From Chryseobacterium bernardetii (GTDB lineage Bacteria; Bacteroidota; Bacteroidia; Flavobacteriales; Weeksellaceae): 64,000 nucleotides of DNA. The notes under the pieces were generated by a model that saw only the letters and a program-made list of their open reading frames with translations, was not told where the DNA came from and did not search any database. The stretch spans positions 4,879,501 through 4,943,500 of the forward strand of contig NZ_CP033932.1 of assembly GCF_003815975.1 (NCBI RefSeq), written 5' to 3'. The position numbers were made by a program, and so were the translations under genes. This document shows positions 4,014 to 14,995 of this stretch, in pieces. Every line of letters starts with the position of its first letter. Positions within the stretch are counted from its first letter, which is position 1.

Positions 4014-5147
4014 ATGTCGAAGTTTGATGAAATCCGGTATTTTCATGATCATGAAGTGAATGAAAGATTACAGAGCATAGCCCGTGATCCGATGATGAAA
4101 GCACTGATGAACTTTACTTTTCCCGGTGTGGATGAGCAGGTTTGGCTTGAACAGTTTAAAAATGTACATTCCATAAGTGATTTCCAGCATCAGTTTGTAG
4201 CATATGCCGTTCGTCAGATCCTTGCAAAAAGCTCTGAAGGCTTAACTACTTCCGGATTTGAAAAGCTGGATAAAAATACCCCTTATCTTTTCATCTCAAA
4301 CCACCGGGATATTGTTCTGGATACTTCACTGCTTAATCTCGTATTGTTGGAAGGCGGGTATATTATGACCGCTTCTGCCATTGGGGATAATCTGGTCCGT
4401 AAAAACTTCCTAAACGTTCTGGCTAAGCTGAACCGGAACTTTTTGGTACAAAGAGGCCTGCCGCTTCGTGAGCAGCTTACAAGCTCACAGACAATGTCTG
4501 AGTATATTAGGGAGCAACTGCTTCATGAAAACCGCTCGGTATGGATTGCCCAGCGTGAAGGCCGTGCTAAAGACGGGAATGATGCCACCCAGCAAGGGGT
4601 TTTAAAAATGTTGGCCATGGCAGCCGGAGAACAATCTCTGATGGATTATTTTAAAAACTTAAAAATTGTCCCTGTTTCTATTTCCTATGAGTATGATCCT
4701 ACAGATTCTCTAAAAATGCCTCAACTGCTGGCACAGCACAGGGATGAGGAATATATTAAAGGTAAAAATGAAGATTTCACCACAATTCTCAGCGGAATTT
4801 TAGGACAAAAGAAAAGAATTCATATCCATGCCGGTGATGTTATTAATACAGAATTGGATCATATTGCCGCTACGATTGAGAATAAAAACAAGCAGCTGCA
4901 GGCTATTGTACAGTTGATTGATGATTCCATCATTAAGAATTACAAGCTTTGGCCCACAAAATATATAGCCTACGATCTGCTCAACAATACAGACACCTAT
5001 GCTTCTCAATATACGGAACAGGAAAAACAATTGTTTATCCGAAGACTTGAAATGCGAATTGATCCGTCTGATCCTGTTTCTAAAGAATATTTCCTGGCGA
5101 TGTATGCCAATCCTTTAGTAAATAAATTAAAGGCTGAAAAAAAGTAA
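4014..5147 (+). CDS. Glycerolipid acyltransferase (PlsC/PlsB-like domain)
   Basis: 377 aa from the ATG at 4014. An in-frame TTG at 3984 would add ten residues, but an ATG beginning MSKFDEIRYF looks the natural start. The motif SNHRDIVLD sits where acyltransferases have their NHx4D box, and QREGRAKDG resembles the EGTRS-type substrate box. In this superfamily the enzyme moves an acyl chain from acyl-ACP or acyl-CoA onto a glycerophospholipid precursor at the inner membrane. No clear transmembrane helix is seen. The exact substrate (glycerol-3-phosphate, lysophosphatidate or a lipid A-like acceptor) cannot be read from sequence. It stands alone between mcrBC and a repeat element. Confidence 0.8.
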   Translation: MSKFDEIRYFHDHEVNERLQSIARDPMMKALMNFTFPGVDEQVWLEQFKNVHSISDFQHQFVAYAVRQILAKSSEGLTTSGFEKLDKNTPYLFISNHRDIVLDTSLLNLVLLEGGYIMTASAIGDNLVRKNFLNVLAKLNRNFLVQRGLPLREQLTSSQTMSEYIREQLLHENRSVWIAQREGRAKDGNDATQQGVLKMLAMAAGEQSLMDYFKNLKIVPVSISYEYDPTDSLKMPQLLAQHRDEEYIKGKNEDFTTILSGILGQKKRIHIHAGDVINTELDHIAATIENKNKQLQAIVQLIDDSIIKNYKLWPTKYIAYDLLNNTDTYASQYTEQEKQLFIRRLEMRIDPSDPVSKEYFLAMYANPLVNKLKAEKK

Positions 5148-5467
5148 TCTCTTTAACCATAGATTACTAAGATCTGCATAGATTTTAATACAAAACTTCG
5201 AAATAATTGAAGGTATTTTATAAACGCAAAGGTTTCATATTTATCCCGTAATATTTCAAGGGAGCAAAGAGAGGATTCAATGAAATTGATTCTTACTAAG
5301 CATGTGCATAATCCTCATGCTTCATCAGCAGTTTACCGCAATCTTAGCCTCCTTAAAAATAAACCACCTGAATCGCTATATCTTTGCGTCAAATAATTAT
5401 ATTTTATTCTTTGTATACACTTTTCTCCAGAAAGGCTATCTTCGTATTCCTATTCAAGATCTTTCAG
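5148..5467. repeat. Structured intergenic repeat element (arms 5224-5231 and 5382-5389)
   Basis: A 320-base gene-free stretch. ACGCAAAG (5224-5231) and CTTTGCGT (5382-5389) are perfect 8-bp terminal inverted arms. Inside, AAGCATG and CATGCTT form a hairpin near 5299-5324, and AAGGGAGCAAAG near 5259 is partly complementary to CTTAGCCTCCTT near 5342. The first 30 bases after the acyltransferase (AGTAATCT ... AGATTACT, then AGATCTGCATAGATT) resemble the degenerate ACAGATT-type repeats seen elsewhere in the window. It looks like a non-autonomous dispersed repeat and not a coding region. Confidence 0.55.
5379..5386 (+). promoter_or_regulatory. Bacteroidota -7 box for the AraC gene
   Basis: TATCTTTG matches TAnnTTTG exactly. 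It overlaps the right arm of the repeat element. It places the transcript start near 5393, which rules out upstream in-frame TTG starts and supports the ATG at 5468. No TTG -33 box is visible at the usual distance. Confidence 0.55.
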
Positions 5468-6295
5468 ATGAAAAAGATGATCCCCTCCCACCACAATCAA
5501 TTGGAAAATTCAACAGTAAGACTGATGCCTCTCTCTGTTTTCTATGAGAAACAAGCCGAAATTCACCGGGATGACCATTATATGTTTATTCTTCAGAAAA
5601 AAGGCGATTTCACACTGGAAGTTGACTTTAAAATTATTGAAATGAAAGGCGCCTCACTATGTTTTGTAGCTCCCGGCCAGATACATCAGTCCATTCACCA
5701 GAAAGATAATGAGGGCTGGTTTTTATTTGCAGAAGCCGGAAGTATTTCAGAATGGTACCGGGAAGTTCTGGATATGCATCAATGGATCCATCAGGCTGTC
5801 AGTATTGAAGAAAATGACCTGATTTTTGATCTCCTTATCCTGCTCGGAAAAACGGAAAGAGAGACAATGATACACCACCTTTCCATAGAACGTTCCCTGG
5901 CCGATGCTACTATTGGAATCATTGTTTCGAGAATTTCAGAATCTCCGGTATTGCCGCCTCAGAACAATAGCCAGAAGTACCTCATTACAAAGCAGTTCAA
6001 AAAGCTTATTGCCGATTATTTTAAAAGTACCAAGCAGGTACAGCAATATGCTCAGTTATTGTCTATTACTCCACTTTATCTGAATGAAACAGTAAAAGAG
6101 GTTACAGGCTATCCTGCCAGTTTCTGGATTCAGCAGAAAATTCTTTGGGAAGCACGGCGTTTACTATTTTATACAACCATGAATGTGAAAGAGATCGCTT
6201 TTGAACTGGGATATGAAGATCATGTTTATTTTTCACGTTTCTTTAAAAAGGGAACTGGAACAACGGCTTTAGAGTTCAGAGCAAAAAAACCATGA
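5468..6295 (+). CDS. AraC-family transcriptional regulator
   Basis: 275 aa from ATG 5468. The N-terminal ~130 residues form a cupin-like sensing domain (IHRDDHYMF, then CFVAPGQIHQSI). The C-terminal ~90 residues carry two helix-turn-helices, with MNVKEIAFELGYEDHVYFSRFFKKGTG as the second HTH signature region. It probably controls the FAD monooxygenase gene that begins 99 bases downstream on the same strand. It is clearly related to the regulator at 14129: both have the same HRD..Y-IF and PGQ-HQ stretches. The inducer is unknown. Confidence 0.88.
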   Translation: MKKMIPSHHNQLENSTVRLMPLSVFYEKQAEIHRDDHYMFILQKKGDFTLEVDFKIIEMKGASLCFVAPGQIHQSIHQKDNEGWFLFAEAGSISEWYREVLDMHQWIHQAVSIEENDLIFDLLILLGKTERETMIHHLSIERSLADATIGIIVSRISESPVLPPQNNSQKYLITKQFKKLIADYFKSTKQVQQYAQLLSITPLYLNETVKEVTGYPASFWIQQKILWEARRLLFYTTMNVKEIAFELGYEDHVYFSRFFKKGTGTTALEFRAKKP

Positions 6296-6347
6296 TTCAT
6301 CCTATCATTACCGTTAAATAACTATCAGCTCCCTGATCTGTACATTA

Positions 6348-6385
6348 TAATTTTGCCCCATCAGTCATAACATAACAGACTGATG
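6348..6385 (+). promoter_or_regulatory. Promoter -7 box plus inverted repeat upstream of the monooxygenase
   Basis: TAATTTTG (6348-6355) matches TAnnTTTG. Four bases later CATCAGTC (6359-6366) and GACTGATG (6378-6385) form a perfect 8-bp inverted repeat around the predicted transcript start, nine bases before the ATG. It could be an operator or a 5' leader hairpin. Confidence 0.55.
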
Positions 6386-6394
6386 CTATAAATT

Positions 6395-7582
6395 ATGATA
6401 CAAAAGCACACCAACAAACGTATAGCCATTATAGGAGCCGGATTAGGGGGTTTATGCCTGACCCAGGGATTAAAAAAGAATGGAATAAACTGTACCATCT
6501 TTGAAAAAGACTCTGCCGCCAATATCCGCACACAGGGATACAGGATCAGGGTAAATGAACCGGGAATACAAGCATTGCAGGCATGCCTCACCCATGATTT
6601 GTACAATCTTTTCATCAATACCTGTGCAGCAAGCTACCGCGGAATGAATGTATTAACAACCCATCTCCAGTCTTCCCAAAATGATTTGGTGGAATCATGG
6701 AGTGACGGTGTAAGTGAGATCCCGGATCTGAAGTCCAACCGCCTCACCCTTCGTGAAATTTTATTACAGGGACTGAATAAAAATATCCATTTCGGAAAAG
6801 AGCTTACGGATTGGAAAGAACTCGACAATGATGAAGTTGAACTTTCATTTGCGGATGGAACAACTTATACTGCGGATCTGGTTATTGCTGCTGACGGTGT
6901 TCATTCCAGAATTGGAAAAGAATATTGTAAAGACCAGAAAGTGAATACCGGAAATATTACGATTTACGGAAGAACTTTTTATTCCCCGGAGGCTTTAAAA
7001 GCAATTTCACCGGAACTACAGAAAGGAACATCCGTTATTATAGAAAACCAGTATTCTCTGATCGTAGATGCAATGGTTTTCAGTTTTTCTCAAAAAGATA
7101 CTTCCTGGGATATTTTAAGTTCTGTTTCTAACTATTTCTATTGGGCTTTTATAGGAAATCCGGAGGCTTTTGGACTTTCGCAGGCTGATTTTTATGATCA
7201 TTCAGGAGAAGAAGTTTTTCATATCATTCGCCAGCTTACCGCCGATTGGCATCCTCAGCTTAAAGCTTTATTTGAGTATTCCGATCAAAAATCACTTTCC
7301 GTTACCCCTGTACGATCCTCTTTGCCTAAAGCGCCCTGGCCATCAGGAAACATTACCGCATTAGGTGATGCTGTACATACCATGAGCCCGGCAGGAGGTG
7401 TAGGGGCTAATACTGCCTTTATAGACGCAGCCCTTTTAACAGAAAACATCATAAATAACAGCAGCATTTCTGCAGCCATTGCAGATTACGAAGATAAAAT
7501 GCGAATATACAGCAATCAGGCAGTAGAGCTCTCTTTACAGGGCGGAGCGATCCTTCATGGCGCTAATGAAAAGGATGAGTAA
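6395..7582 (+). CDS. FAD-dependent monooxygenase (aromatic hydroxylase / TetX-like fold)
   Basis: 395 aa. The N terminus has the dinucleotide-binding motif IIGAGLGGL. A second FAD contact, GDAVHTMSPAGGVGANTA, lies near residues 325-342, and DLVIAADGVHSRI is the conserved DG motif that contacts both FAD and NAD(P)H. This is the PHBH-type class A flavoprotein monooxygenase fold, which includes TetX and UbiH-like hydroxylases. The sequence does not tell me the substrate, and tetracycline modification should not be assumed. The AraC gene just upstream and the dedicated promoter with its palindrome suggest an inducible detoxification or catabolic step. Confidence 0.85.
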   Translation: MIQKHTNKRIAIIGAGLGGLCLTQGLKKNGINCTIFEKDSAANIRTQGYRIRVNEPGIQALQACLTHDLYNLFINTCAASYRGMNVLTTHLQSSQNDLVESWSDGVSEIPDLKSNRLTLREILLQGLNKNIHFGKELTDWKELDNDEVELSFADGTTYTADLVIAADGVHSRIGKEYCKDQKVNTGNITIYGRTFYSPEALKAISPELQKGTSVIIENQYSLIVDAMVFSFSQKDTSWDILSSVSNYFYWAFIGNPEAFGLSQADFYDHSGEEVFHIIRQLTADWHPQLKALFEYSDQKSLSVTPVRSSLPKAPWPSGNITALGDAVHTMSPAGGVGANTAFIDAALLTENIINNSSISAAIADYEDKMRIYSNQAVELSLQGGAILHGANEKDE

Positions 7583-7611
7583 CAGATAAATTGTATCCAG
7601 AATATCAAATG

Positions 7612-7638
7612 GTCAGTGAATTTTTTCACTGACTTTTT
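7612..7638 (+). terminator. Rho-independent terminator after the monooxygenase
   Basis: GTCAGTGAA (7612-7620), a TTTT loop, TTCACTGAC (7625-7633), then TTTTT. The stem is extended by ATCAAA/TTTGAT flanks. Confidence 0.85.
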
Positions 7639-7770
7639 GATTGTATCAATCAAAACCGGAGGATTCGGTTTTACGGCTTCCCGTAATTTTATTCATCGTG
7701 TTGTTTGTAGTTTCGGGCTTTATAAAACAAAGTGTTTTACCACCTCATTCAAAAAACAACGAATAACATT

Positions 7771-8799
7771 ATGAATAAAAAAATGACTCCTGCAGATCTC
7801 TTTTTGGGAATCCTTGCATTATTACTGATCAGCGTAAGTTTTTACCAGACATGGCTTGGGCTGCAACAGATTTTTGGCCCGGCATCTTTTGTAATTGCCC
7901 TGGTTTTATCACTCCTCCTTTTATTCCTTTGCTGGATGCTGAGAAATGCTAAACTGGCAGGCAAGCCTACCGGAAGCCTGGTAGGTATTTACATTTTCAT
8001 TGCCTCATTCTGCTTTATTGCCAATTTCAATGCCCTGTATACAAGGTTTATGAAAACGGATATTTATACGGATGAACTCCGTGATATCAATAAAAATTTT
8101 ACCGCTCTTGAAAATGATGTGGAATCTAAGCTGAGCTATAAATACAATAAAGCAACCACTCAAAATATCGAGATCAAGAAAAAACAAATGATGGAGCAGA
8201 TTAAAGATCCCGGAAATAAAGGAATCGGAACCCGTGCCCAGCTGTTAATTAAAGATATTGAAAGGTTAACAGGCCAAAAGGTAGATCTGCTGACTCCCGT
8301 AGGTGAGGATTACGAAGACCTTGCAGAAAGAATGGGAAAACAGATTGACAATATCATTTCAGATCTTTCTCCTGAAGAAAGAGCCTTGAAAACCGACATC
8401 AATAATGCAGCTTTTAAGTGGAATAAAAACATCCAGGATCTGCTTCTTTTGTCTAAGAAGGATAAAGACGGGCTTTCCCAGGGTTTAATTGATGAATCCC
8501 TTTCGGATTACAATAAACTGGGAAGCAGGGCACAAACGGTTCTTGGAAATGATAAAATACACTTTGAACCCCTGGTTTCCAAAACCCAGCAGGTTGGAAA
8601 AATAGGTTTTGCCTTTGAACATGCCATTAAAAATTTCGGAATGTACCAGTTTGTGGTACTGGCAGGCTGTATCCTGCTTGATTTCGTGATCGTTATTATC
8701 ATTTTATTGGTTACTGATTCCGGAAACTACACCGGAAGCAATGGCAGAAGCGTGTTTACCAATAAGAGAAGCGGAAAAACCATCATTCCTAATAATTAA
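7771..8799 (+). CDS. Polytopic membrane protein with long soluble domain, first gene of a three-gene unit
   Basis: 342 aa from ATG 7771; a GTG at 7732 would add 13 residues. Three hydrophobic segments lie near residues 9-30, 37-57 and 68-86. About 200 mostly helical, charged residues follow, then one more membrane helix near 295-320 (FVVLAGCILLDFVIVIIILL) and a short basic tail. I recognise no named domain. The gene is followed three bases later by a P-loop protein and then by a tail-anchored coiled-coil protein, so the three products probably form one membrane-associated complex. This one would be the membrane platform. Function unknown. Confidence 0.85.
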   Translation: MNKKMTPADLFLGILALLLISVSFYQTWLGLQQIFGPASFVIALVLSLLLLFLCWMLRNAKLAGKPTGSLVGIYIFIASFCFIANFNALYTRFMKTDIYTDELRDINKNFTALENDVESKLSYKYNKATTQNIEIKKKQMMEQIKDPGNKGIGTRAQLLIKDIERLTGQKVDLLTPVGEDYEDLAERMGKQIDNIISDLSPEERALKTDINNAAFKWNKNIQDLLLLSKKDKDGLSQGLIDESLSDYNKLGSRAQTVLGNDKIHFEPLVSKTQQVGKIGFAFEHAIKNFGMYQFVVLAGCILLDFVIVIIILLVTDSGNYTGSNGRSVFTNKRSGKTIIPNN

Positions 8800-8802
8800 G
8801 CC

Positions 8803-9729
8803 ATGGAAAACAATGATCAGCTAAAACCTCTGTCTTTTGAAACAGAGGAAGCCTTAAAACCATTATCTTTTGATTTTCAAAATGACATCAAAGAGGATTT
8901 TGTCCCTATTGCCAAAACCATTTCCAATGATATCAGAAATAAGGACAGCAATTTTGTCTTTTTCTTTGGTACTGCAGAATCGGGAAAATCTGTGATCCTC
9001 TCTTCCATGCTTTATTATCTAAGGTCATATGCGGGAGTTTTAAGACCCAAACTGGGAACTCCAAATTCTAAAGAAGCCAATGTTCTTCTCTCTGATTTTT
9101 TTGAGAACATCAGGCAGGGCGTACTTCCCAACAGAACAACAAGAGATCAGGTAACCCGTCTGGATCTTGTTTTTGAACCGAATAACAGATCTAAAAGAGT
9201 GGTTCCTATAGATCTTACTTTTCTTGAAACCTCCGGAGAAAACCATAATGATATCCGAAGAGGCGGAAGCTACCACAGCAGTATAGAAACCTTTCTGAAT
9301 GCCAATATTCCGCTTACTTTTATTATTGTTACCAGCTATGAAACTGCCTACAAAGATGATTCTTTAATCAATGAATTCCTGGATGAGCTGGAAAGGAAGG
9401 GGAAGAATTTAAAATCGGTGAATGCTATTCTGGTTATTTCCAAATGGGATAAATCCGGAAGAATGGATGTGGAAAGTGCAGAAGCCCTTGATGCCTTTAT
9501 CTCGGAACACCTTCCTATGACTTCACAACGAATTGATACTTATGGCTTAAGTAAAACGTATTACACTATCGGAAGTATCCGGAATACCACAGGAAGCGAA
9601 AAAATTGACCTGTTGAATCTTTCAACCGCTGAAGTGCTTGCCAAATGGCTCTACAGAAGCATTGCAGGCTATGATCTGGATTATGAAGGAACATTCTGGG
9701 AACGTATAAAATTTAGTTTTACAAATTAA
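8803..9729 (+). CDS. P-loop GTPase-like protein, second gene of a three-gene unit
   Basis: 308 aa. Walker A GTAESGKS is at 56-63, a switch-like LETSGENHND near 143-152, and ILVISKWDKSG near 205-215 fits the N/SKxD base-specificity motif of TRAFAC GTPases. The first 25 residues contain a short duplicated LKPLSFD/E motif that could be a binding tail. No membrane helix is present. From memory, standalone GTPases with helical partners are described among proposed bacterial conflict systems (the DO-GTPase/GAP1 families), and this may be a relative, but I cannot confirm that here. The stop overlaps the next start by one base, so the two proteins are probably made together. Confidence 0.85.
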   Translation: MENNDQLKPLSFETEEALKPLSFDFQNDIKEDFVPIAKTISNDIRNKDSNFVFFFGTAESGKSVILSSMLYYLRSYAGVLRPKLGTPNSKEANVLLSDFFENIRQGVLPNRTTRDQVTRLDLVFEPNNRSKRVVPIDLTFLETSGENHNDIRRGGSYHSSIETFLNANIPLTFIIVTSYETAYKDDSLINEFLDELERKGKNLKSVNAILVISKWDKSGRMDVESAEALDAFISEHLPMTSQRIDTYGLSKTYYTIGSIRNTTGSEKIDLLNLSTAEVLAKWLYRSIAGYDLDYEGTFWERIKFSFTN

Positions 9730-10964
9730 TGGACAGTACATATTTTTTCTCCGCATTCGGCACTTTCGGGAACCCGAATGGTTTCAGGCAGTCTTTTTTC
9801 CTGGGCGGCAACAAGAACATTGCCAAAGAAATCAGGACCTTTGATCTAAAAACTGATGCTATCAAGCTGTTCCCGCAAAGCAAAATCTATGCTATCCGGA
9901 AAGATTATGCCGGTGGAAGCCACCTCATCTCCTACTCTGTTTACACCTTTGCCAAGGAACAGAATTCGGACAGAGGCGGTACATTTATCGGTTCGAGCCT
10001 GCTCTTCGTGAATAAAATTGCTTCTGAGGGAATTATCGTCAATGCACTGAACGAATTTCAGAGGCATCTTGAGAAACATAACCTTTCAGAGGGAACTATT
10101 ACCGTCAATCATTCTGATCATTTTTCCATCCAAAAACCAAAAGATTTTGATAAGATAGGATTTAACATCCGGGAAGTGGATGAGCTTAACTTCAGCCAAT
10201 CCAACAATAATTTTCTTGTGGTATATTGTGAAACCAATGCCGGCCAGCTCCAGCACTTTTTTAACAAAGCTATTGATCTTTTGAACGTTTATGATACTAT
10301 TTATTTTACCCAAAGTCATGAAATTGGAGAATTTGTAAAGCAAAAAGGAATTTTTAAAATTGTAGATTCCAATGGATTTACAAAGGAGCTTGACCATCTT
10401 GAGGAGGAAAGAATCCGGAATCTTCAAAACATGATTGCTGAGCTTGAAAAAGAAAAAGAGAGCTTAAATGATGAGAAAACGAAACTGCTTGAAGATCTCA
10501 ACAGACAGATTTCGCTAAATGAAAAACGGCATCAGGATAATGAAGCTAAAATAAAAGAATCCAAAAACGGCATTGAGGTTATTAAGAAAGAATATCATCA
10601 GTATTCAGAAAAAATAGAGGAAATTATTAAATCTCTTACTTCTGACGGAAAGGTAGAAGCTGCTAAAAAAAAGTATATGGAAAACAAAAGATCGTTTGCA
10701 GACAGTATCCGCCAAAAGAAAAATATAGAATCCCTCTCTTCTCTCTCTTCCCAGAATGGAAAGTTTCAGCCAATGGGAAATCAGCCATATGCTAACGCTG
10801 GTGGACTTGCGGGTTTCCACAGTTCCGGCATGGAGCAGAAAAAAGAGTTTGAGCTTGATGGCTTCAAAGTAGCTACATTAATTTTATCATTACTGCTGAT
10901 TGGCACATTAGTTTTATGCTTTATGTGGATGCCGGAAAAATACTTAGCGGTATTTTCCCAGTAG
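9729..10964 (+). CDS. Coiled-coil, C-terminally membrane-anchored partner of the GTPase-like protein
   Basis: 411 aa. The first ~210 residues form an unrecognised globular domain that opens with STYFFSAFGTFGNPNGF. A coiled coil rich in E, K and N follows at about 220-320, then a disordered S/G/N-rich linker. A single C-terminal hydrophobic helix near 383-405 (VATLILSLLLIGTLVLCF) suggests a tail anchor facing the cytoplasm. The globular domain resembles, by general architecture only, the GTPase-associated adaptor proteins of proposed GTPase conflict systems. It is tightly coupled to the upstream GTPase gene. Function unknown. Confidence 0.83.
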   Translation: MDSTYFFSAFGTFGNPNGFRQSFFLGGNKNIAKEIRTFDLKTDAIKLFPQSKIYAIRKDYAGGSHLISYSVYTFAKEQNSDRGGTFIGSSLLFVNKIASEGIIVNALNEFQRHLEKHNLSEGTITVNHSDHFSIQKPKDFDKIGFNIREVDELNFSQSNNNFLVVYCETNAGQLQHFFNKAIDLLNVYDTIYFTQSHEIGEFVKQKGIFKIVDSNGFTKELDHLEEERIRNLQNMIAELEKEKESLNDEKTKLLEDLNRQISLNEKRHQDNEAKIKESKNGIEVIKKEYHQYSEKIEEIIKSLTSDGKVEAAKKKYMENKRSFADSIRQKKNIESLSSLSSQNGKFQPMGNQPYANAGGLAGFHSSGMEQKKEFELDGFKVATLILSLLLIGTLVLCFMWMPEKYLAVFSQ

Positions 10965-11047
10965 AACACTTTTCCACTTTATGCCTTCGCAAGATTCACA
11001 GCTTTTATTAAAAGTTAAAATATTATCTTCGTAAAAAATTTGACAGT

Positions 11048-11593
11048 ATGAAAAAAATAATATTTCTGGCTTCGGCTGTTCTGGTATTGAATTCATGTGT
11101 GGTAAGAACTGCCACTAAAGTAGTATCTGGAGCTGTAAATATAGGCTATAAGGCGGTAAAGGGAACTGTTAATGGTATCAGCTGGGCAGTAAGCAAGGCA
11201 AAGGGGAAAATAGATGAAGACCGTTTGGACGGAACCTGGAAAGTTGTAGGGGTTTATAAAGGTTCTTTTGAAGATTTTACCAAAGATCAGAATCCGGAAA
11301 GCACATTTTCTTCGGATTGTACAGAAGGTTTTGACCAAATGATTTTTAAAGCTAATAAATCTAAGTTTAAACCTGTACATTGCAGTTCTGATAAGGAAGA
11401 TTGGGTAAAATACTCTTTAGAATTCGGGAAAAACCCTATCACCAAAGAAAAAGAAAATTATATTGAATACAATTCCAATAATTATATTTCGGTGATTGAT
11501 GTTAATAGTAAAACAATGGTCCTGGAAGGTAACCTGATGCCTAAGCTGGCATTTTCCGGTGCTAAATTATATCTTCTGGAAAAAGTAAAATAA
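11048..11593 (+). CDS. Secreted lipoprotein, unknown function
   Basis: 181 aa. It begins with a lipoprotein signal peptide ending in the lipobox LNSC, so it is probably anchored to a membrane through Cys17. A stretch rich in K, V and G follows, then a lipocalin-like LDGTWKVVGVYKG motif, as in the many Bacteroidota lipoproteins with a small beta-barrel domain. A near-consensus -7 box, TATCTTCG, lies at 11024-11031. It is 83 bases after the three-gene unit and ends at a terminator, so it may be a separate transcript or a distal member. Confidence 0.75.
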   Translation: MKKIIFLASAVLVLNSCVVRTATKVVSGAVNIGYKAVKGTVNGISWAVSKAKGKIDEDRLDGTWKVVGVYKGSFEDFTKDQNPESTFSSDCTEGFDQMIFKANKSKFKPVHCSSDKEDWVKYSLEFGKNPITKEKENYIEYNSNNYISVIDVNSKTMVLEGNLMPKLAFSGAKLYLLEKVK

Positions 11594-11600
11594 ATTATAA

Positions 11601-11634
11601 AGCCTGTCTCTCATTATTGAAGACAGGCTTTTTT
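11601..11634 (+). terminator. Rho-independent terminator
   Basis: AGCCTGTCT (11601-11609) and AGACAGGCT (11621-11629) form a perfect 9-bp stem followed by a T run. Confidence 0.88.
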
Positions 11635-11670
11635 ACTTATTGCAGGGTTATTAGTTAGTTATTTTTATTT

Positions 11671-11733
11671 TTCACGGATTACACGGATGATTGAAAAGCG
11701 GATATACTAAAAACCTTTTTTAATCTGCGTGAA
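11671..11733. repeat. Degenerate CACGGATT/AATCTGCGTGAA inverted repeat
   Basis: TTCACGGATTACACGGATGAT at the left is partly complementary to TAATCTGCGTGAA at the right. It resembles the ACAGATTACACAGAT-type dispersed repeats common in Flavobacteriia intergenic DNA, as I remember them. Confidence 0.4.
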
Positions 11734-11737
11734 TAAT

Positions 11738-13222
11738 TTACTTATTCTCTATATCGGCAATTTTCTTTCCTTCTTCTCCCAGATAATGAAGAACCAGCTT
11801 TTCGTATACTTTATAACCATTATCTGAATTGGTAAAAATCAGAAGCCCTTTACCTGACTGGGGCAATAGAAATGCAATACATCTTGTACCATGATCTGCA
11901 CCGCTATGAGACAAGGCATAGTTTCCATTTCCCAGGTCATAAACTAACCACCCTAATCCAAAGTAAGTATCTTCTTTTATTTTTACCTGCTTCTTTATCA
12001 TTTCCTTAAAAATATTGGGCATCAGCCCTTTCCCTTTCATCACACTTACCATAAAATTCCCGTAATCCCCGATTGTTGTATGCAGATCATCAGCGGCATT
12101 GGCTGTCTTATTTTTTTCTACCGGATAATGCTTTCCTTCCTCATCATATCCTACTGTAAATCTGGATTCATCGGTATTCTGATCCCAGATATAATCTGTA
12201 TCGTTCATTTGAAGAGGATTAAAGATCAGTTCCCGGGCAAGCTGCTCCAGCGGCTTTTTAAATTTCTTTTCCAGAGCTTTCCGCAGGTATTCAAATCCTT
12301 CTCCTGAATATTGATATTTCGTTCCCGGCTCAAACTGAAAGTTGAGTTTTCGGTCAGCATTCATCCATCTCCAGTTGGGGAATCCAGTCTGATGAGAAAG
12401 AATAAGCCGGGTTGTTAATTTTTCATGCCTCGGATCACTGGCAATATCCGGATCTGTCCAATAAGTATCCAGAGGTTCATCCAGTTTCCAGCTTCCAAGG
12501 CTTATCAGACGTAAAGCTACCATTGCTGTAACGGGCTTAGTAAGAGAGGCCACATTGAAATAGGCATTATAGGGAGCTGAATATTCTTTTTTAATTTCAC
12601 CAAACATTTTGATCTGTTTCAATGCCCCATCTTCAATAATTCCCAGTCCAAGAGCCGGAATTTTATTTTCTTTCAACCAATTTCCTATTTCCTGATCGTT
12701 ATTAAAGACCGTTTCCTGATCGGTTTTTTCTTTGGCATGATGATCAAAACTGAATGACTTTGCTAATTTCCAATCATTATTCTCCAAAAGCCAGAAATTG
12801 ATAAACTTAGCCCCACCTACTAATTTTTCTGCCCGGCTGCCTTGTTTTTCATAAAACAGATGTTCCCCGTTCTGTATAGCTGCATACACTTTTCCATCTT
12901 TAAACATGGGATAGATTTGAGTGCTTTTATCAGCCAGAACTCTTTTGGAACGATAAACATCCGGAGATTTACAAAGACCATTTTTAAAGTCGGTCAAGAA
13001 TTTCTGTTTATCTGAAAAGCCGTCTTTATCATGATAGAATTCGAGATGCTCACTCAGCAGCTCCTCCATCTGTTTACTGTTACACATATTAAATCCTACA
13101 GAAAAAAGAAGGCTGTCCCTTGCCATTATTGTCTGGTAAAGAGGATCTGTTTTCGGCAGTTGAGCATAAGTATTAAAAAACAGAAAGAAAAAAAGAAATA
13201 CAGATGAAGCTGTTTTTGTCAT
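11738..13222 (-). CDS. Periplasmic serine hydrolase with N-terminal DUF4440/SnoaL-like domain
   Basis: 494 aa from ATG 13222. An in-frame TTG at 13240 lies inside a near-consensus -7 box and is unlikely to be the start. A signal peptide ends at TYAQ. The next ~140 residues look like a DUF4440 (NTF2-fold) domain. The rest is a class C beta-lactamase-type serine hydrolase: SLTK gives the nucleophile Ser and Lys, a YSGEGF motif supplies the tyrosine, and HSGADHG is the third box. Such proteins are usually esterases or D-aminopeptidases of cell-wall peptides, not true beta-lactamases. The fusion with a DUF4440 domain is the notable point. It is transcribed alone, with the Xre gene upstream. Confidence 0.85.
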   Translation of the reverse strand: MTKTASSVFLFFFLFFNTYAQLPKTDPLYQTIMARDSLLFSVGFNMCNSKQMEELLSEHLEFYHDKDGFSDKQKFLTDFKNGLCKSPDVYRSKRVLADKSTQIYPMFKDGKVYAAIQNGEHLFYEKQGSRAEKLVGGAKFINFWLLENNDWKLAKSFSFDHHAKEKTDQETVFNNDQEIGNWLKENKIPALGLGIIEDGALKQIKMFGEIKKEYSAPYNAYFNVASLTKPVTAMVALRLISLGSWKLDEPLDTYWTDPDIASDPRHEKLTTRLILSHQTGFPNWRWMNADRKLNFQFEPGTKYQYSGEGFEYLRKALEKKFKKPLEQLARELIFNPLQMNDTDYIWDQNTDESRFTVGYDEEGKHYPVEKNKTANAADDLHTTIGDYGNFMVSVMKGKGLMPNIFKEMIKKQVKIKEDTYFGLGWLVYDLGNGNYALSHSGADHGTRCIAFLLPQSGKGLLIFTNSDNGYKVYEKLVLHYLGEEGKKIADIENK

Positions 13223-13310
13223 TATTAAATTTTTTGACAAAGATTATATTTTCATCTGTCTCATCCCTAAAAATGAACCTGACAAAAACCCGACAAAGCC
13301 CTGACAGGAA

Positions 13311-13895
13311 TCATATCATATTGAAATTCAAACGAAAATACAGTTTCTTATTGCGGTCAATCTCTGCAGCATTGCGAAGGATTATAAAAATATTAGAGAG
13401 TACAATGACAATCATAAGAATCAGCGTAAACTGTCTTCCGAGCTTTAAAAATATCCCCAACATGAATACAACAGGTGCTATAACTGTCCATATCATCTGA
13501 ACTGATATAATCTGTCTGGCCAGGCTGTTTCTCTGCTTCATGGTAAACATCAGGAGAAGCGGAACAAGAATATTCAGTGGCGGCAGCAGGGTAAACAGCA
13601 GTGAAGAAAGGTTGATAATTTTAATGAGACCATAATTGATCTCAGGCTGCAGCTCTTCTTCCACTTCAGGAGCTATCTCATGGGTAACTTCATCATTGGT
13701 TACAGGAATTGCGATAATATTCTGTAAGGATTTCTCCTCTATTTCCAAGGCTTGGGCCAATGCTCTCAAGGTATGCCCTTTCGGTTCTGTACCTGCTTCA
13801 ATTCGTTGGATGGTTCTTACAGATATCTTCGATTTTTCTGAAAGTTCTTCCTGGGTAAGGTTTTTCTGCTCTCTTGCTACTCTTAGTTTAGACAT
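13311..13895 (-). CDS. Xre-type HTH regulator with membrane tail
   Basis: 194 aa. Residues 1-60 form an HTH_3/Cro-type domain (REQKNLTQEELSEKSKISVRTIQRIEAG). The C-terminal ~110 residues hold four hydrophobic helices (for example LSSLLFTLLPPLNILVPLLL and LILMIVIVLSNIFIIL). Membrane-bound Xre proteins of this size are common in Chryseobacterium-like genomes. It may sense a membrane signal and act on the divergent AraC gene or the downstream serine hydrolase, but its target is unknown. Confidence 0.82.
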   Translation of the reverse strand: MSKLRVAREQKNLTQEELSEKSKISVRTIQRIEAGTEPKGHTLRALAQALEIEEKSLQNIIAIPVTNDEVTHEIAPEVEEELQPEINYGLIKIINLSSLLFTLLPPLNILVPLLLMFTMKQRNSLARQIISVQMIWTVIAPVVFMLGIFLKLGRQFTLILMIVIVLSNIFIILRNAAEIDRNKKLYFRLNFNMI

Positions 13896-13947
13896 GAATG
13901 ATTGGGAAATATTTACTTTAATTCCATTAGCTAATTTACGTTTTTTT

Positions 13948-13983
13948 CAATATTGGGATCACAAGCTGCCTATCCCGGTATTG
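13948..13983. promoter_or_regulatory. 12-bp imperfect palindrome between divergent regulator genes
   Basis: CAATATTGGGAT (13948-13959) and ATCCCGGTATTG (13972-13983) are complementary at ten of twelve positions, and the other two form G-U pairs in RNA. It sits between the Xre gene and the AraC gene. It is a candidate operator. Confidence 0.4.
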
Positions 13984-14101
13984 CAACAAAAAAATTACAG
14001 ATCTCTAAACATGATTAAAAAGCGTTATCAATACCAATTTAGAATCTTCTGCCACAGTAACTTTTTATATTCCGAATCAAAACAGATCTTTTATATTGTT
14101 G

Positions 14102-14128: not shown

Positions 14129-14995
14129 ATGAAGCATACCATTCCTACCTACGATCTAAGTGACATTTCCAGGCATCGCTTCCATATAAAAAGAATGGAT
14201 CAGCATACGTATTATGCGGAAAATATCCTTTTGGATAAAGGAATACATCGGGACAGCCATTATATATTTACTTTCATGGAAAGCGGACATGTAAAAATGA
14301 TGGTAGACTTCAACATCATTGAAGCTGAAAATTCTACTATCTTCTGTGTATTACCCGGACAGGTACACCAGGGATTTTTAATGGATAACGTGAACGGATG
14401 GTTTGTAGCTGTAAAATCTGATATGGTTCCGGATGCTGTACGTTCTGTTTTTGAAGAGTTTCTGGAAGGAATACGTCCTTTGAAAGTGGAGACAGCATGG
14501 GTAGAAAAATTCAATAACACGGCCGCTATACTCCATTCCTTTTATACGGAAGAGATGCTGGCTTCCAAAGAAGGTTTCTCAATGATCCAGTCTCTGCTTC
14601 ATACTTTTATAGGGATGTTTGCCTTTATTTACTCAAAAGAAAACAATTCTCAGGCCGCCTCTGAAAATCGTTCATTACAACTTACACGGGAGTTTAAAAT
14701 TATGGTAAGGCAAAACTATAAAACCCTGAAAAGTCCATCCGAATATGCTGAAAAGCTAAATATCTCCAGAGGGTATCTCACAGAAGCCGTCCGTGAGGTG
14801 ACCGGTAAACCTGCCCAACACTGGATTCATCAGGAAATTCTGATTGAAGCCAAGCGGTTATTGGCGTTTACCCATCTTACCATAAAACAAATTGCTTATG
14901 AGCTGGGATATGATGACCACACGTATTTCAGCCGCTTATTTTCAAAACTGGAAGATGAATCCCCTTCTGAATTCAGGAATTCAAACAGGAGCTGA
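14129..14995 (+). CDS. AraC-family transcriptional regulator
   Basis: 288 aa. The N-terminal cupin-like sensor domain contains IHRDSHYIFTF and FCVLPGQVHQGF, matching the regulator at 5468 nearly position for position, so the two are paralogues. The C-terminal region has the AraC double HTH (LTIKQIAYELGYDDHTYFSRLF). The siderophore-interacting-type reductase gene follows 138 bases later on the same strand and is the likely target. The effector is unknown; the pairing would fit iron-linked control, but nothing in the sequence proves this. Confidence 0.87.
   Translation: MKHTIPTYDLSDISRHRFHIKRMDQHTYYAENILLDKGIHRDSHYIFTFMESGHVKMMVDFNIIEAENSTIFCVLPGQVHQGFLMDNVNGWFVAVKSDMVPDAVRSVFEEFLEGIRPLKVETAWVEKFNNTAAILHSFYTEEMLASKEGFSMIQSLLHTFIGMFAFIYSKENNSQAASENRSLQLTREFKIMVRQNYKTLKSPSEYAEKLNISRGYLTEAVREVTGKPAQHWIHQEILIEAKRLLAFTHLTIKQIAYELGYDDHTYFSRLFSKLEDESPSEFRNSNRS

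Follow-up and report, generated by a model that had tools for sequence, protein, structure and literature searches.

A three-gene unit of Chryseobacterium bernardetii encoding a DO-GTPase1-type GTPase, a membrane protein and a candidate regulator

In 2020 Kaur et al. (PMC7159879) put forward the DO-GTPase1 family as one core of GTPase-centric conflict systems; the main text of that study has GAP1 typically downstream of the DO-GTPase, and reports two paralogous GTPases for the N1 type and in 38% of all systems. (No experimental study of DO-GTPase systems turned up in our literature searches.) The other closest known systems are the Rag GTPases with their longin-domain regulators (FNIP/Lst4, GATOR1), the bacterial MglA-MglB pair, and TagF, a type VI secretion regulator. 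Here we describe three adjacent genes, A, B and C (Table 1), from a 64,000-nucleotide stretch of the C. bernardetii genome (contig NZ_CP033932.1, positions 4,879,501 to 4,943,500; the window, within which coordinates are given). Our best reading is that this trio represents a new branch of the DO-GTPase systems that signals across the inner membrane. An earlier sequence-only reading of this DNA had described three tightly coupled genes, and a check of the open reading frames (ORFs) agrees, with a spacing of 3 bases between A and B and an overlap of 1 base between B and C.

Table 1. Features of the locus, with positions in the window
Feature	Coordinates	Strand	Description and basis
Gene A	7771..8799	+	342-aa membrane protein; hydropathy and charge count, relatives
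Gene B	8803..9729	+	308-aa DO-GTPase1-type GTPase; Pfam PF19975, model, fold match
Gene C	9729..10964	+	411-aa protein; AlphaFold2 model, structure comparison, hydropathy
Terminator-like hairpin	7611..7634	no strand	weak; pattern scan

The GTPase and its family

B contains the motifs GTAESGKS (residues 56-63, the P-loop), LETSGE, and SKWDKSG (residues 213-219). In an alignment of 29 B sequences, four of the eight positions of GTAESGKS and six of the seven of SKWDKSG are invariant, the remaining positions being at least 90% conserved; G56, G61, K62, S63, E142, G145, E146, W215 and D216 are invariant throughout. The trait that characterizes DO-GTPase1, a P-loop together with a conserved Walker B glutamate, is found here, with E142 and E146 as candidates for the glutamate described in the paper. 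The corresponding Pfam family, PF19975, matches window B with an E value of 4.3e-5 and 23.3 bits, which is under the cut-off of 27, and a PF19975 profile search of the organism's own genome misses this protein. With E values up to 0.1 admitted, 28 of the 29 aligned sequences match, the window's included, and PF19975 is carried by 34 among the 120 listed B homologues. Two distant B proteins lie above the cut-off (27.1 bits for locus L092 and 31.6 bits for L106), that of L091 falls below it, and that of L090 has no match. At the level of sequence, then, the kinship of B with DO-GTPase1 appears clear through its relatives. The sequence-only reading had also stated that no named pathway matches the unit exactly; this does not hold for B, which belongs with DO-GTPase1 (PMC7159879), and does hold for A and C, neither of which has a convincing Pfam match. 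(The dynamin family, whose name is borne by one relative, P0060, was rejected: it is not among the 16 families that match any of the 29 B sequences.)

The model of B consists of a G-domain fold followed by a short helix at the end. Preceding the G domain is an N-terminal tail of low model confidence with two LKPLSF motifs; PLSF-like copies number two in 92 of the 120 listed homologues, one in 22 and none in 6, and there are four in the Chlorobi copy L109/L072 (L109:8211-8400; window 8803-8900). This repeat may be a docking motif. Sequence searches found no solved relatives of either A or B. Each of the 43 positive genomes of the genus has a single match to the B profile, that is, no second GTPase, although a very diverged paralogue would escape this search.

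Constancy and spread of the trio

A genome scan for B yielded 60 named loci. A, B and C follow one another in this order in 58 of these, and in the other two (L040 and L078) B lies at a contig end. The gaps between B and C peak at -4 and -1, and those between A and B are mostly 3 to 18 bases. Because the same genes, order and close spacing recur in Bacteroidota and in metagenome-assembled genomes (MAGs) of Chlorobi, the trio is more than a chance arrangement. Moreover, a search with A alone across 296 genomes of the phylum gave seven positives, the organism's own genome included, and B adjoins A in all seven. Even at L092, where all three proteins are 28-29% identical to those of the window, the order is kept. 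At L106, L090 and L091 BLAST recognises B only (24-29%), and the A- and C-position genes were assigned by position and hydropathy. (Note that the A-position proteins of L090 and L106 have a similar N-F/L-N motif after the third hydrophobic segment.) Thus the constant trio in Bacteroidota, which the sequence-only reading had suggested looking for by a neighbourhood survey, was found; among the loci and genomes examined the genes never turned up apart, and no housekeeping system matching all three proteins was found in what was examined. As for the defence genes that it had envisaged alongside, the picture is mixed. The sample comprised 98 neighbouring proteins of 150-900 amino acids from 26 of the 60 loci, with a maximum of four for each locus; they form no steady defence island, and GmrSD is present in 3 of the 98. 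A match of a neighbouring ABC transporter to a PADLOC model (mad3) was taken as a cross-match.

Distribution of the trio is patchy. Among 118 genomes of the genus 43 have B, as do 5 of 295 from the class; the window's genome is counted in both, and two of the five class positives are the genomes of the distant loci L090 and L091. The trio is thus accessory. A tree of A and B from 55 of the 60 loci is discordant with taxonomy: its Chryseobacterium sequences require no fewer than four changes, and sequences of Chitinophagaceae, Saprospiraceae, Sphingobacteriaceae, Spirosomataceae and further families are intermingled. This suggests that the trio spreads by horizontal transfer. The chromosomal site is stable in some clades, where, for example, the same 1231-residue gene lies just upstream. 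No copy of B was found among 72,556 plasmid and 50,697 phage records.

Several individual loci deserve mention. In the Niabella loci L074 and L075 all of the trio genes are present and frame-broken, reflecting either decay or assembly errors. L079, from a record named Cellulophaga, carries a trio near-identical to those of Flectobacillus, and the record is possibly misnamed or mixed. L078, a MAG contig titled Alphaproteobacteria, ends with an incomplete B and a C, from a binning error or from transfer. Finally, in the Chlorobi-type copies (L070, L071, L072, L093 and L109) a large gene of up to about 1780 codons lies directly upstream of A; in L070 its product has RHS repeats by Pfam.

The membrane protein, the candidate regulator and neighbouring genes

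The four helices that the sequence-only reading had ascribed to A are recovered by hydropathy, which places hydrophobic segments at residues 6-24, 39-57, 68-86 and 295-313, that is, three N-terminal transmembrane (TM) segments and one C-terminal one. Of 56 A proteins of named loci, 52 have a third segment that meets or exceeds the hydropathy threshold, and the remaining four fall a little short of it, with scores of 1.39-1.58. By charge count, positive charges are found at the N-terminus, in the loop joining segments 2 and 3, and in the C-terminal tail; under the positive-inside rule for membrane topology, this pattern predicts a periplasmic location for the 208 residues that separate segments 3 and 4. 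(The mechanical ORF of A begins at a GTG at 7732; we used the ATG at 7771, a start better supported because 112 of the 120 listed A relatives are 337-345 residues long.) Identity of A to its relatives is 75-95% among the 120 listed and goes down to 56% in other loci. Some relatives bear the database name DUF4407, and no study of DUF4407 was found in the literature, judged on titles and abstract openings.

The AlphaFold2 model of C (pLDDT 83.6) comprises an alpha/beta domain (residues 1-213), a long helix (214-306), a second helix (309-330), then a linker of low confidence, and an anchor helix (378-400) that is also detected by hydropathy. The C-terminal anchor of the sequence-only reading is accordingly present, as, by alignment, are its two B motifs, and the long helix is probably a coiled coil. 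Window C is a short form that lacks a periplasmic tail, whereas long forms, of 500 residues or more, have a tail after the anchor. Compared with solved structures by sequence, C gave one match, at chance level. Matches of A, B and C to PADLOC models were absent or weak, the best (E value 0.00035) being a coiled-coil match of C.

In structure comparison with VIA-align, the top rank went to Rag-type GTPases for B, and for C to the longin domains of Rag regulators. Two results weigh against taking these rankings at face value: Foldseek puts atlastin and RalA, rather than Rag, first for B, and for C it puts fluorescent proteins first, with no match significant. Because the two programs disagree, we treat the resemblance to Rag and longin proteins only as a lead. 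Nor do we file B as a Rag protein, since its model is without a C-terminal Roadblock-type domain. The model of the N-terminal domain of C (residues 1-213) may possibly be longin-like in part.

We also compared C with the GAP1 partner of the published systems. Window C matches no GAP1 model, and for 54 C sequences none appears among the listed families (25 of 77). Three of 247 genomes have GAP1-N1 (PF20012), one match being sub-threshold and in an unrelated-looking protein, and none of 148 genomes of the phylum has GAP1-N2 (PF20013). When C was aligned with GAP1-N1 by hhalign, two-sequence profiles gave nothing, and a 12-sequence GAP1-N1 profile (two Bacteroidota loci and ten plasmids) gave a default probability below 1%. 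With a score offset, the score was 31.5 against a maximum of 25.3 in 100 shuffles, but 1 of 129 real decoys scored higher (34.8); a second, more diverse set of C sequences gave 33.1 against 27.0 for shuffles, with one of the 129 decoys once more ahead. When global alignment was forced, the score was under that of most shuffles. By eye, a Y-x-x-A-K/R ... R-x-G pattern is common to C and GAP1-N1. GASH and FNIII had no match in window A, in window C, in the next gene, or in distant A- and C-position proteins. As the searches yielded neither GASH nor FNIII nor a second GTPase, we keep the trio out of the N1 and N2 types.

C is followed immediately, in 11 of the 60 loci, by a gene for a lipoprotein that has a retropepsin-like domain. 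The Pfam match has an E value of 3e-14 for L064 and also appears in 6 of the 98 neighbouring proteins, and all 11 contain D-T-G. At the diverged locus L106 a protease of the same kind is specified by the second gene downstream of C. A gene for an SNase-type nuclease lies just downstream in 6 of the 60 loci, including L074 and L075, where it follows a frame-broken C. Directly after the lipobox, C-x-HPE is present in all 11 proteases and in three of the six SNases (L064, L067 and L075), which gives the impression of a single N-terminal tag joined to either of two enzymes, and is perhaps a common sorting or docking tag. The protease follows C in 11 of 25 long-C loci and in 0 of 30 short-C loci (Fisher p 3.7e-5), five loci with a broken or cut C (including L074 and L075) being left out of this count; 14 of the 25 and all 30, respectively, have neither protease nor SNase. 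We do not use this association as proof, because the loci belong mostly to one clade of the tree and kinship explains part of it.

A query with the protease matched 42 of 118 genomes of the genus. Only one match, beside the trio of genome G066, is close (E value 5.6e-64), and it is not independent, because G066 appears to be the genome of locus L061; the others have E values of 3.6e-9 or weaker and lie in open frames of about 390-420 codons. Seven of 296 genomes of the phylum match, the closest two being G593, which contains the L106 trio, and G406. In the stretch read, G406 has no trio, and near its protease are genes for a tubulin-like and an actin-like protein, each matching Pfam only weakly; nor has G627, the third of these matches, a trio in the stretch read. 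The protease thus also occurs with another core, and effectors of conflict systems are described in the main text of PMC7159879 as occurring with different cores. In the stretch L138:989-7972, the lipoprotein protease family lies near tubulin-like and actin/FtsA-like genes (weak Pfam matches), with no trio. Other neighbours are more varied. Upstream of the distant trio of L090 (L090:4223-7379) are genes for a lipoprotein bearing a caspase domain and for an 8xMP membrane protein, and a papain-family protein is encoded near this trio on the opposite strand. At L091 (L091:7491-17999), SrfB (PF07520) and SrfC (PF10139, Virul_Fac, with a P-loop-like motif) lie two genes after the distant trio, whose C-position protein bears a LysM domain.

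The window locus itself is a minimal, three-gene form. A gap of 188 bases containing the weak hairpin precedes the trio; because the scanned region has 5 terminator-like sites against 4.0 expected from shuffles, the hairpin counts for little, though it may separate the trio from an upstream gene that, judged by its sequence, is FAD monooxygenase-like. Two regulators flanking the trio region (5384-6295 and 14129-14995) fall into one protein cluster; both, including the one upstream, are by their sequence of the AraC type. The G+C content of the trio (38.6%) is near that of the window (37.1%), and Rfam gave no match above threshold over 5000-14000. Downstream of C is a lipoprotein gene, D (11048-11593). 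We considered D as a fourth member of the unit and rejected it: within the flanks examined, only 5 of the 60 loci have a copy, which lies directly after C in L023, one small ORF further in L021, and about 3 to 8 kb off in L026, L028 and L069.

Proposed mechanism, rival readings and known systems

The mechanism we propose is that of a constant, horizontally spreading three-protein module in which GTPase B, partner C and platform A signal across the inner membrane, a proposal to which we give an even chance. Cytoplasmic B, of the Ras/Rag-fold DO-GTPase1 kind, would switch with GTP; the N-terminal, possibly longin-like domain of C would bind B and control its nucleotide state, and the long helix and C-terminal anchor of C would tether B to the inner membrane. 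A would serve as the membrane platform, with its large predicted periplasmic loop as the likely receptor. A periplasmic or envelope signal at A (and, in long forms, also at the C tail) would flip B, and the switched complex would then act on the envelope. In long forms the C tail would share the periplasm with the lipoprotein retropepsin-like protease and the SNase-type nuclease, which are plausible outputs. The GTP-switched membrane complex put forward by the sequence-only reading draws support from the trio's constancy, from the family and fold of the GTPase, and from the membrane segments, whereas the physical complex itself is something we infer. A sensor or conflict role, also raised there, is plausible, given the patchy distribution and the secreted protease and nuclease linked in some relatives.

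We considered whether the trio might serve strictly in defence against phages or rivals, sensing infection or envelope attack at the membrane, with the GTPase triggering a killing or protective effector. Kinship with the DO-GTPases of proposed conflict systems (main text of PMC7159879), the patchy spread, the linked protease and nuclease, the caspase-domain lipoprotein and 8xMP protein of L090, and occasional defence-type neighbours such as GmrSD would all fit; but the PADLOC matches are absent or weak, the named neighbour families are mostly ordinary (among the 25 of 97 families listed), the window operon has no recognisable effector, A and B are strongly conserved, and the plasmid and phage records hold no B. 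We regard strict defence as rather unlikely. The conservation of A and B is better accommodated if the trio is an accessory sensor of envelope homeostasis or stress, in which A would read the state of the envelope and the B-C switch would adjust envelope proteins. The predicted periplasmic loop of A and the LysM domain of the L091 C-position protein also speak for a sensor of this kind, as do passages of PMC11237479 in which a DO-GTPase gene is found in some psp operons and tied to membrane-related stress. Nevertheless, 75 of the 118 genomes of the genus are without a match, which is unusual for homeostasis, and nuclease lipoproteins fit such a role poorly, so that we consider it slightly less probable again than strict defence. 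Family and spread agree with a role in conflict, and the conservation of A and B with one in envelope sensing; our data do not tell the two apart.

The small-GTPase fold of B beside a candidate regulator whose modelled fold is possibly longin-like, together with the relatedness of the longin fold to Roadblock (passages of PMC3521125), also brings to mind a polarity or positioning switch of the MglA-MglB type for surface motility or protein localisation. This we consider improbable. Roadblock and Mgl families match none of the window proteins or 29 B sequences, and for 54 C sequences the listed families (25 of 77) include neither; the model of C opens with strands whereas Roadblock domains have an N-terminal helix; the distribution is accessory; and no motility family is among the neighbour families listed (25 of 97).

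Returning to the trio as a DO-GTPase branch, a bolder version, which we think doubtful, is that in a bacterial operon a Rag-like GTPase is paired, on an integral membrane platform, with a genuine longin-type regulator, and that the pair governs a lipoprotein aspartic protease and a nuclease across the inner membrane. GAP1-N would then be the same longin-type domain, and the whole class a bacterial parallel to, or the source of, the eukaryotic Rag-longin pair. If C is indeed longin-like, the trio would be a bacterial counterpart of Rag regulation open to testing, and would suggest in structural terms what the GAP1 partner might do. On our best reading the trio adds a branch from Bacteroidota and Chlorobi to the DO-GTPase class, its three-gene minimal form could be purified whole, and the linked lipoprotein protease is a concrete candidate output.

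With Rag GTPases and their longin regulators the trio would share the fold of B, perhaps in part the N-terminal fold of C, and the logic of a membrane platform, a GTPase and a regulator; it differs in that no homology was found for C at the sequence level and in being a bacterial operon with an integral membrane partner. (A bacterial GTPase-longin pair of this kind was not found in the literature, judged on titles and abstract openings.) Like MglA-MglB, it combines a bacterial small GTPase with a dedicated candidate regulator, potentially of the longin/Roadblock superfold; unlike MglA-MglB, it gave no Mgl or Roadblock family match, its C has a membrane anchor, and its A is without a counterpart. 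It differs from the DO-GTPase/GAP1 systems, as the main text of PMC7159879 presents them, in having a single B match in each genome, no match to GASH or FNIII and a constant partner A with 3+1 TM segments, and C, which occupies the position of the GAP1 partner, has no recognisable GAP1-N, -M or -C. Likewise, some neighbours of the trio are a secreted lipoprotein protease and an SNase, neither retropepsin nor SNase being mentioned in that main text, although its supplements might list such loci. What the trio has in common with these systems is a DO-GTPase1-type GTPase with acidic Walker B residues, a directly adjacent downstream partner, membrane parts, a patchy spread, and enzymes among its variable neighbours.

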